From NCBI RefSeq assembly GCF_963664075.1, contig NZ_OY760916.1:1428001-1492000 (forward strand): 64,000 nucleotides of DNA, in the 5' to 3' direction. A program made the translations under genes and the position numbers. Under the pieces are notes generated by a model. It did not search any database, was not told the origin of the DNA, and saw only the letters and a program-made list of their open reading frames with translations. Positions 30,071-51,900 of this stretch are shown here, piece after piece. Each line of letters opens with the position of its first letter. Within the stretch, counting starts at the first letter, position 1. Origin of the DNA: an uncultured Desulfobulbus sp. (GTDB taxonomy: Bacteria > Desulfobacterota > Desulfobulbia > Desulfobulbales > Desulfobulbaceae).

Positions 30071-30091
30071 TGGCTGGTCAGCGACCAGCCG
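30071..30091. repeat. Small perfect hairpin after the selenoprotein gene
   Basis: GGCTGGT and ACCAGCC pair around a five-base loop, about 26 bp downstream of the selenoprotein stop on the minus strand. There is no T-run, so it is a weak terminator at best. Confidence 0.35.
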
Positions 30092-30116
30092 CTGTCACAA
30101 ATGCAGGCTATACGCC

Positions 30117-30317
30117 TCAGGATCCTCCATACCCGATGGTCACCTGACCATCGTTGACGATAACCGGCACCTTTCGTTGCCCTCCACTGTAGCCGAGCAT
30201 TTCCTGCATACGCTGACTATCCTGTTTAACATCATGATAGACATGATCCGGGTTCGCCGCACGGGCGCGATCGGTGTAGGGTCAACCTTGTTTACCAAAA
30301 ATCAGTATCGTACTCAT
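30117..30317 (-). CDS. Glutaredoxin-like UXX-star selenoprotein (in-frame TGA = selenocysteine)
   Basis: An ATG at 30317, preceded by a strong GAGGAG, opens a 66-codon gene in which TGA at 30284-30282 is codon 12. The product reads MSTILIFGKQG-U-PYTDRARAANPD and later KVPVIVNDGQVTIGYGGS before a TGA stop. This is a thioredoxin-fold glutaredoxin/NrdH-type protein: beta strand, active-site U-P-Y-T replacing CPYC, cis-Pro in KVPVIV and the GYGG end. A bacterial SECIS-like hairpin lies directly after the TGA: stem CGCC/GGCG with loop CGUGC beginning about 18 nt downstream and a G among the first two loop bases, closed by GATC/GATC. Standard gene calling would miss it. The Sec machinery must be encoded elsewhere. 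Confidence 0.85.
30248..30272 (-). promoter_or_regulatory. Candidate bacterial SECIS element
   Basis: On the transcript of the selenoprotein gene, bases after the UGA fold as CGCC-CGUGC-GGCG, with an outer GAUC/GAUC pairing possible. Distance and loop guanine agree with known bacterial SECIS requirements for SelB binding. Confidence 0.65.
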
Positions 30318-30476
30318 GAGCAACTCCTCGGGCATTTGGCCCTTTCTACAGTGTTCTGATCCGTCTTTATGAAGACCAACGGATAACGGATGGGGATTTA
30401 ATTTAAGGTTATCCCATACAGAATAAAAATAAATAGGATTTTTCTATTGTTTTCGAGGGACCCTGGAAATAATTAT

Positions 30477-30575: not shown

Positions 30576-30863
30576 ATGTTTACATGTCAAAAAACACAAC
30601 ACAAGCATCAGGGAAAACACCAGGGCCGTGGCCGGGGAAAATGTTATCAGGAATCCCTGGAAAGCAGACAGTCTCGCTTTGGGCGTGGCTGTAGGGGGCA
30701 AAATTCATTTACGGTTCGCTCCAGGATCGACAATACTCCAGAGGCAACGGAGAATGCGCTGAATGTCAGCTGTCCGCTCTGTAAAAATCACTGCCCCTTA
30801 AGTGAACCAGGATGTCCCAAAGGGGAAGCCTTTGTACAATCCATGCAAGGAAAGGGCGAATGA
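30576..30863 (+). CDS. Small Cys-rich basic protein, partner of MarR regulator
   Basis: The 95-residue protein is unrecognised. Its N-terminal half is basic and rich in His, Gly, Arg and Gln (KHQGKHQGRGRGK, RFGRGCRGQ). The C-terminus has a cysteine cluster (CPLCKNHCPLSEPGCPKG) that could hold an Fe-S cluster or zinc. AAGGAGA precedes the ATG. Its TGA overlaps the ATG of the MarR gene (ATGA), so the two are translationally coupled. A redox- or metal-sensing cofactor for the regulator is a reasonable guess but only that. Confidence 0.7.
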   Translation: MFTCQKTQHKHQGKHQGRGRGKCYQESLESRQSRFGRGCRGQNSFTVRSRIDNTPEATENALNVSCPLCKNHCPLSEPGCPKGEAFVQSMQGKGE

Positions 30864-31354
30864 GACAACTTGGTGCGGTTGTTTCCCAAAATGGACAAAA
30901 TGAATTGACAGAGCTGTTTCATCAAACATTTCGAATGATGGCCCGCTCTTCAAGAAGAAACTGCCAGGTGCCCCATGCCCAGCACCGTGTACTCAAGCTC
31001 ATTGAAGAGCATGGCCCACTCTCCCAAGGAGCCTTGCTGGAGATGCTTGGTGTGCGCTCCTCTTCCCTAAGTGAAATTCTGGCCAAACTTGAAAGAAACG
31101 GACGTATTGTTCGCAGACGTAATGAGGCGGATAAACGAGGGTTTATTCTTTCTCTGCAAGAAAATGGAGACAATCAACAGGGGAGCAATCAGGTGCATGC
31201 AGAACAGGGAACAGATGTCTTTTCTTGCCTTACCTCTAGGGAGCGTGAGCAACTCAGAGAACTGTTGACCAAGGTGATCGAGCAGAATGAAGAAAATCGA
31301 CCTGGGAGAAGAGGGCGTGGCAGAGGCAGGGGGCGTCATCGTTTTTCAGCCTGA
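30860..31354 (+). CDS. MarR-family transcriptional regulator with Gly/Arg tail
   Basis: This 164-residue winged-helix regulator shows HAQHRVLKLIEEHGPLSQGALLE, the recognition region LGVRSSSLSEILAKLERNG and the wing IVRRRNEADKRGFILSL. A repetitive GRRGRGRGRGRHR tail ends the protein and mirrors the basic segment of the preceding gene product. Start is the ATG at 30860 in an ATGA overlap; a longer frame to 30812 runs inside the upstream gene. Palindromes before the operon are its likely operator. Ligand unknown. Confidence 0.85.
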   Translation: MRQLGAVVSQNGQNELTELFHQTFRMMARSSRRNCQVPHAQHRVLKLIEEHGPLSQGALLEMLGVRSSSLSEILAKLERNGRIVRRRNEADKRGFILSLQENGDNQQGSNQVHAEQGTDVFSCLTSREREQLRELLTKVIEQNEENRPGRRGRGRGRGRHRFSA

Positions 31355-31381: not shown

Positions 31382-31894
31382 TTACTTTTCTATGCCTGTT
31401 CGGGCTTCAACGCCTTGTTCATAGTAATGTTTTACTTCTCGCATCTCCGTGACCAGATCTGCCATATCAATGATCTCCTGGGGAGCATAGCGGCCAGTCA
31501 GGATGACCTCAACCTTGGGGGCACGAGCCTTGAGTGCTTCAATGAGGTCTTCGACTGGAAACAGTTTGAAGTAGAGAGCAATATTGATCTCATCGAGTAC
31601 AACCAGGTCATAGCTACCGGAGTGGAGTATCTGGGCCATCTCAGCAAGACCGTCTTGAGCGGCGGCGTAATCCTCCTGGGTTGGTTGGCTATAAATAAAG
31701 CAACCCCGACCATACTGTTTTAAGGTGATATTGGGCAGTGAAGGGAGAAGATCCAGTTCACTGTAGTGCATGCCCTTAACAAACTGGCCAATGAAGACCT
31801 TCAGCCCAGCCGCTGCCGCCCGCAGACTTACGCCAAGAGCTGCGGTGGTTTTTCCCTTTCCATTGCCTGTGTATACCTGGATGTAGCCGTGCAT
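31382..31894 (-). CDS. cobO: Cob(I)yrinic acid a,c-diamide adenosyltransferase
   Basis: The 170-residue P-loop enzyme of the CobO/BtuR family attaches the adenosyl group of ATP to the cobalt of corrinoids. The Walker A-like motif YTGNGKGKTTAALG is at the N-terminus; YDLVVLDEINIAL is the Walker B-like segment; and ILTGRYAPQEIIDMADLVTEMREVKHYYEQGV is a family-typical end (given here as its parts). AGGGAG precedes the ATG. It stands alone on the minus strand, converging with the MarR operon. Together with cobN and the B12 riboswitch in this window it indicates corrinoid synthesis and uptake. Confidence 0.92.
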   Translation of the reverse strand: MHGYIQVYTGNGKGKTTAALGVSLRAAAAGLKVFIGQFVKGMHYSELDLLPSLPNITLKQYGRGCFIYSQPTQEDYAAAQDGLAEMAQILHSGSYDLVVLDEINIALYFKLFPVEDLIEALKARAPKVEVILTGRYAPQEIIDMADLVTEMREVKHYYEQGVEARTGIEK

Positions 31895-51630: not shown

Positions 51631-51660
51631 TTGACTTTCCCTGTTCTTCCAAGTTTATCT
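51631..51660 (+). promoter_or_regulatory. Sigma-70-type promoter of the B12-riboswitch transcript
   Basis: TTGACT and TTATCT are separated by 18 bp. Transcription would start about 51667, just at the riboswitch's 5' end. Confidence 0.5.
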
Positions 51661-51667
51661 GCACTTC

Positions 51668-51838
51668 GTTCAGGTGTTCGTGAGAACCTAAAAGGGAACC
51701 CCGTGTAATTCGGGGACGGGCCCGCCGCTGTAACCGGGGACGAAGACTGCATTACGTCACTGACCAATAATGGGTTGGGAAGACGCAGTTGATCGATTGA
51801 TCCGGAAGTCAGAAGACCTGCCTGAGCAGCTTAGGAGA
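51668..51838 (+). promoter_or_regulatory. Cobalamin riboswitch
   Basis: The conserved blocks are in order: AAAAGGGAACCCCGTG, then GGACGGGCCCGCCGCTGTAA, TGGGAAGACG and the B12 box AGTCAGAAGACCTGCC (51807-51824). It binds adenosyl- or methylcobalamin. A strong terminator 60 bp further on indicates control by transcription attenuation of the TonB receptor gene. Confidence 0.95.
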
Positions 51839-51900
51839 CGACTGCGTGGACGGCGGCGTGCCTGGACATTGTGAACAATGTACTGTGGATAATTAGGGAT

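Follow-up and report, generated by a model that had tools for sequence, protein, structure and literature searches.

The locus raises the question of whether a short open frame interrupted by TGA codons encodes a selenoprotein and, if so, how many of these codons are read as selenocysteine (Sec). It lies on the minus strand of a 64,000-nucleotide stretch of DNA from an uncultured Desulfobulbus sp., referred to as a whole as the window. A preliminary description, which left the strand unstated, had proposed a 66-residue product with a single Sec at codon 12. The sequence elements named there are all present: a likely ribosome-binding site, GAGGAG (30324..30329, minus strand, recognised from the sequence), six bases ahead of the ATG start codon (30317-30315, minus strand); codons 1-11, reading MSTILIFGKQG; the TGA at codon 12 (30282..30284, minus strand), which opens the active-site motif UPYT; and the landmarks KVPVIV and GYGG. 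After codon 12 the frame continues as PYTDRARAANPDHVYHDVKQDSQRMQEMLGYSGGQRKVPVIVNDGQVTIGYGGS up to codon 67, a further TGA (30117..30119, minus strand). This had been taken for the stop codon; it is followed by GGC GTA TAG, a C-terminal U-x-x-stop, and both the sequence and the family rows identify the TAG (30108..30110, minus strand) as the real stop. The gene thus spans 30108..30317 on the minus strand (69 codons plus TAG), and its product, with both UGAs read as Sec, has 69 residues, two U, no Cys and the tail GYGGS-U-GV. It is very probably a glutaredoxin-fold protein of UXX-star selenoprotein family 1, in which SelB would direct Sec to both UGAs, each with its own downstream hairpin.

Judged by its sequence, the read-through product is beyond chance, because it matches a curated family from end to end: against NCBIfam NF041114, UXX-star family 1, it scores 110.4 bits (cut-off 72; E = 3.7e-32; positions 1-70 of 70), which bears out the earlier guess of a UXX-star or glutaredoxin-like protein. 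Without the last three residues the score is 101.4 bits, the tail contributing 9 bits, and the 54-residue stretch between the two UGAs reaches 80.6 bits by itself. The parent subfamily NF041212 (Uxx_star) is likewise over its cut-off (75.3 versus 66 bits), and Pfam Glutaredoxin (PF00462) matches the product at 7.1e-9, the family profile A1 matching 3GRX at 1.8e-4. NF041212, NF047338 (family 3) and NF041211 (family 2) are related profiles of 70-71 positions, and the product falls far under the cut-offs of families 2 and 3. As NCBI holds a curated model, it was too strong to say that standard tools would call nothing or a 55-residue fragment; a plain gene caller would split this selenoprotein gene at two places. 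Classical glutaredoxins (PF00462; E. coli Grx3) are related by sequence and have a CPYx-type start and the cis-Pro in common with the window protein, in which the second Cys of the active site is T; instead of the CXXC of dithiol glutaredoxins it carries UPYT, and it has no Cys at all. The fold would be that of a truncated glutaredoxin that has UPYT in its active site and in which the short Sec-bearing tail GGSUGV presumably takes the place of the last helix.

UXX-star family 1, including its two Sec, is already published, since the available part of the 2026 review PMC13188914 lists it as ‘Distant Grx-like protein 1 (UXX-star selenoprotein family 1)’ with the motif UxxT and two as the number of Sec; the available part of a second review, PMC9312934, also lists the family (‘Distant Grx-like protein 1’) with UxxT. 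The review credits it to the 2008 GOS paper PMC2398784, in the accessible text of which a Grx-like UxxC family and an OsmC-like UxxT family are found and UXX-star family 1 is not. A literature search, judged by titles, found no experimental study of the family. The window gene is a further example of this named family and no new kind: it shares the full-length match, the UxxT motif, the two Sec and the C-terminal U-x-x-stop, and differs in nothing essential, its second hairpin being spaced 34 nt from the UGA. The name ‘UXX-star’ evidently denotes the C-terminal Sec-x-x-stop seen in the alignment, which in the window gene is UGA-GGC-GTA-TAG.

The gene is patchy in its genus, as NF041114 is over cut-off in seven of the 242 genomes of the order, all of them among the 23 genomes of the genus in the set and all with two UGAs; an eighth member (G211, locus L030) has only a degraded stretch. 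In the phylum 100 of 395 genomes have a match over cut-off, against none of 14 control genomes. Named relatives (nine loci) include Desulfobulbus, Desulfonatronum, Syntrophus, Desulfovibrionales and Gammaproteobacteria bins, the Syntrophus copy (L059) being frame-disrupted and the gammaproteobacterial one cut by a contig end. The family table, which counts the window's own copy, has 111 rows drawn from 110 loci; the rows L153 and L155 are identical in protein and tail. Loci L054-L058 (records already counted), L087 (the same copies as L081) and L030 (truncated, 46 bits) are excluded from the counts, and two matches over cut-off, in G322 and G335, are left out of the table.

Across this table, position 1 is UGA in 96 of the 111 rows and Cys in the other 15, as expected if codon 12 is a recoded UGA, and homologues do not end before this codon. 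At position 2 all 108 readable rows have UGA and none has Cys, a count in which Sec may be favoured over Cys because all rows except L053 and L059-L061 were found by the family profile over cut-off; it is unreadable in L059 (disrupted frame), L061 (contig end) and L085 (stretch too short). Position 2 was located by a pattern that demands S, T or A ahead of it and V, I or L at the second residue beyond it, and that excluded no readable row. A Cys form of position 2 was also sought in families 2 and 3, which are over cut-off in none and six of the 395 phylum genomes, respectively; the six family-3 matches end in GGUGF (two), GGSEF, GGTAF, GGSEV and GADSF, none with Cys at position 2. Since position 2 is never Cys, the classic test by Sec/Cys pairs is inapplicable there. 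Two U and no Cys are found in 84 of the 105 distinct family proteins. A CPYC protein that is more distant and scores under the family cut-off (L174, G326:C10) also ends with a U, in GFGGGUAV, and apparently uses UGA for Sec as well as for the stop.

The bases downstream of the second UGA are informative instead. The residue after Sec2 is Gly in 70 of 108 rows (GGG 38, GGC 14, GGT 10, GGA 8); the next is Val in 95 and Ile in 13, identities that are partly built in by the locating pattern, and all codons of both are used, so that for Gly as for Val all four third bases occur. A stop stands exactly two codons past Sec2 in 97 of the 108 rows (TGA 51, TAA 24, TAG 22); when the frame is shifted, 3 rows (one shift) and 4 rows (the other) have a stop at this point. 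The second UGA thus appears to be read through, because what follows it is coding sequence ending in U-x-V/I-stop. That codon 12 alone is recoded, and the UGA at 30119-30117 an ordinary stop of a 66-residue protein, would fit the finding that all readable rows have UGA at position 2 and none has Cys; such a stop does not account for a tail with three stop types at a fixed place and free third bases before them, unlike untranslated sequence, nor for the curated NF041114 profile including this tail, and we consider this reading very improbable. Because the C-terminal Sec is never Cys in the readable rows, whereas the N-terminal one is Cys in 15, the pattern points to a special role of the tail.

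If both UGAs are recoded, each should be followed by a hairpin of the bacterial SECIS type, for which the available part of PMC13188914 gives the following rules: a loop of 3-9 nt with a G in its first two bases, a stem of 4-16 bp, a distance of 16-37 nt after the UGA and a folding energy of at most -7.5 kcal/mol. At Sec1 the rule is passed by 69 of 94 members (73%), against 10-20% at three to fifteen codons downstream; at Sec2 it is passed by 95 of 108 (88%), against about 24% at three to seven codons downstream. Upstream the rule is loose: 39-51% pass at 14 to 30 codons before Sec2 and 58-71% at 7 to 13 before, and the codons just upstream of each UGA score equally high because the allowed range slides along. 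The information lies in the sharp fall just past each UGA. Of the 14 members whose position 1 is Cys, 7 pass even at the Sec1 site (one alone at the usual 18 nt) and 12 at Sec2. Part of the Sec1 signal may thus stem from the protein sequence, as the upstream codons and the Cys members also pass.

The commonest distance at Sec1 is 18 nt (48 of the 69 passing members), and at Sec2, where the hairpin mostly lies beyond the stop codon, it is 17-20 nt in 77 of the 95 passing rows and 16-24 nt in 92. Passing hairpins at 17-20 nt, past the stop, in 77 of all 108 rows again speak against an ordinary stop at codon 67. For Sec1, base pairs were counted directly in 93 distinct segments and set against slid and shuffled versions: the five positions of the stem pair in 84.7%, against a mean of 76.2% and a maximum of 79.1% in 1000 shuffles and at most 49.7% when the stem is slid by one to three bases. 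One of the stem pairs occurs as GC, CG, AU, UA and GU, 91 of the 93 segments carry a G among the first two bases of the loop, and the Cys members pair more weakly at four of the five pairs; RNAalifold found no structure in the Sec1 segments (0.0). Strict uninterrupted stems at 16-24 nt reach -7.5 kcal/mol in 70% of 107 segments at Sec2, against 3.4% of shuffles, and in 8.6% of 93 at Sec1, against 1.5%. The distance rule would also explain how a UGA stop escapes recoding, since a loop at 17-20 nt from Sec2 is only some 8-11 nt away from a stop two codons on, under the 16-nt minimum. The hairpin past the stop is retained in the degraded or frame-disrupted copies L030 (G211) and L059 (Syntrophus bin).

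In the window itself, the hairpin for Sec1 is where the preliminary description had placed it and where most relatives have theirs: a CGCC/GGCG stem (CGCC-CGUGC-GGCG, 30255..30267, minus strand) whose loop CGUGC (30263-30259) begins 18 nt after the UGA. Its strict stem alone has -4.5 kcal/mol, and the threshold of -7.5 is reached only with the lower stem (-9.8), the other rules holding. Among 200 shuffles, 21 and 25 fold as well for the two stretches compared (z -1.1 to -1.2); taken alone this hairpin is not beyond chance and becomes significant only in the family comparison. The candidate element for Sec2, GGCUGGUC-GCU-GACCAGCC (30072..30090, minus strand), lies past the stop codon and is more stable (-15.1 kcal/mol; matched in folding by 5 and 2 of 200 shuffles, z -2.1 to -2.6). 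It obeys the rules at 34 nt, its loop GCU and its spacing being atypical of the family, and the best stem at 16-24 nt has only -4.4 kcal/mol. Just beyond the stop, the six remaining full-length copies of the genus carry TTCGGC-GGTC-GCCGAA, with a loop of 4 or 6 nt that contains GGUC at 17-18 nt. This odd spacing is what the reading with a single Sec can claim for itself in the window, and the evidence for insertion of the second Sec is good in the family as a whole and weaker in the window strain. Rfam has no match at its curated threshold at the gene; two chance-level matches lie nearby (E 2.6 and 5).

A first hairpin no better than shuffles, together with the degraded copies elsewhere (L030, L059), is also what a chance open frame or a pseudogene with nonsense codons would offer. 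Such an origin is hardly conceivable for a frame that matches the whole NF041114 profile at 3.7e-32: all seven full-length copies in the genus, that of the window among them, retain both UGAs, and A1 has 37 invariant columns.

The preferred reading, with both UGAs as Sec, calls for the Sec machinery, and the genome (one contig, 4.78 Mb, estimated to be 100% complete) has all of it: SelA (609 bits), a single SelB (387 bits) and SelD (368 bits), all over their cut-offs, and a tRNA-Sec of 70.3 bits, also over cut-off, with the anticodon tca. The earlier proposal had named selA, selB, selC and selD as the genes whose absence would speak against it. The SelD gene itself carries one internal UGA. 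Two opal tRNA-Sec-like genes, L015 and L016, are over the Rfam gathering score. L015 ends in G-CCA, as tRNA-Sec does. L016, which lies outside the window (G000:C1:1233089-1233183) beside 23S and 5S rRNA, has the opal anticodon tca, the acceptor GACUGGU/ACCAGUC followed by U-CC, and thus the discriminator U73; its type is matched well in 11 of the 23 genus genomes, its own included, and the ten relatives keep the same U. The genome further has two cysteinyl-tRNA synthetase (CysRS) genes over cut-off. The second (L199 583-2922; G000:C1, about 3792080-3794418) lies inside a 779-residue frame whose N-terminal part we take to be cysteine synthase-like, and a tRNA-Arg gene stands just downstream of it.

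According to the available part of PMC7609411, U73 marks selC*-type tRNA-Cys, which in some deltaproteobacteria has an opal anticodon and occurs with a second SelB, and in Desulfobacterales selC* is accompanied by a CysRS without the anticodon-binding domain. L016 looks like such a tRNA, judging from its U73 and its tRNA-Sec shape; the selC* tRNAs of Desulfobacterales described there have A1:U72, whereas the first pair of L016, given U73, is G1:C72. Cysteine may therefore be inserted at some UGAs in the window organism, and the two UGAs of the window gene could be read partly or wholly as Cys by this second opal tRNA (tRNA-Sec shape, UCA anticodon, U73). The two opal tRNAs, the 11 well-matching genus genomes, the published precedent and the pair of CysRS genes favour this; on the other side are the single SelB over cut-off, a second CysRS that is a fusion to a cysteine synthase-like part rather than the reported short form, and the retention of SelA and SelD. 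Moreover, the L016-type tRNA is probably not required for the two-UGA gene, because each occurs without the other: the gene is present in G159, G199 and G203, where the tRNA has no good match (G199 and G203 being about 75% complete), and G072, G103, G115, G150, G226 and G234 have a good match to the tRNA and none to the family. We regard a Cys reading as improbable, and equally so its variant in which tRNA-Sec and the U73 selC*-like tRNA-Cys would compete for the two UGAs and selenium supply would decide between a diselenide and a dithiol.

With Sec at both positions, the protein would function as follows. SelB, carrying Sec-tRNA, would read both UGAs as Sec under the direction of a separate hairpin downstream of each, of which the second lies beyond the stop codon. 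Sec12 in UPYT may then attack a substrate (a disulfide, a peroxide or a metal species), after which Sec67, in the short tail at the C-terminus, may resolve the intermediate as an intramolecular Sec12-Sec67 diselenide, so that neither the second cysteine of a CXXC motif nor glutathione would be needed. The sequences show the extent of the gene, its family, the machinery and the conservation in relatives of both UGAs and of the hairpins; Sec insertion itself, the chemistry and the substrate are what we infer. A Sec12-Sec67 diselenide is the simplest redox couple, because the window protein has no Cys and two U without Cys are the rule in the family; we give this mechanism about an even chance, and the role is likely that of a small, glutathione-independent diselenide redox protein. 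It is possible, if doubtful, that in the same protein the Sec pair is instead a ligand of metals or metalloids such as mercury or arsenic. The invariance of the C-terminal U, set against a varying N-terminal one, agrees with this, and PMC13188914, in the part available, suggests that UXX-star Sec may bind metals or other unknown substrates; the glutaredoxin active-site motif and the cis-Pro, both kept, argue against it, as does the fact that none of six neighbour proteins scanned matches a metal-resistance family over cut-off.

The neighbourhood names no partner: among 28 loci compared, only close relatives have neighbours in common, and no operon partner emerges. L029, the locus of the nearest congener, has amylase-like and MarR-like neighbours in common with the window gene. 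The MarR-like regulator has sub-cut-off matches to the MarR family and in L029, too, lies upstream of the gene. Weak sub-cut-off matches among the neighbours include HTH_metalloreg (the MarR-like regulator) and HgcB ferredoxin (an Fe-S protein). In another clade the gene adjoins genes that we take to be ndk-like (eight loci) and nth-like (six loci). A small His/Cys-rich frame without NCBIfam match (30576-30863, plus strand) overlaps the frame of the MarR-like regulator (30812-31354, plus strand). Elsewhere in the window are a cob(I)yrinic acid a,c-diamide adenosyltransferase gene (31382-31894, minus strand, 217.5 bits) and a cobalamin riboswitch (51655-51839, plus strand, Rfam, 118.1 bits).

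For the window gene, the analysis corrects the number of Sec from one to two. For the family, it describes a clean natural experiment, in which a recoded UGA is followed two codons on by a stop and the recoding hairpin lies mostly past that stop. In about half of its members (51 of the 97 with the standard tail) this stop is itself UGA, only six bases from the Sec codon; with the hairpin loop past the stop, distance alone would there have to separate Sec from stop, which would make the family a natural test of SECIS spacing.
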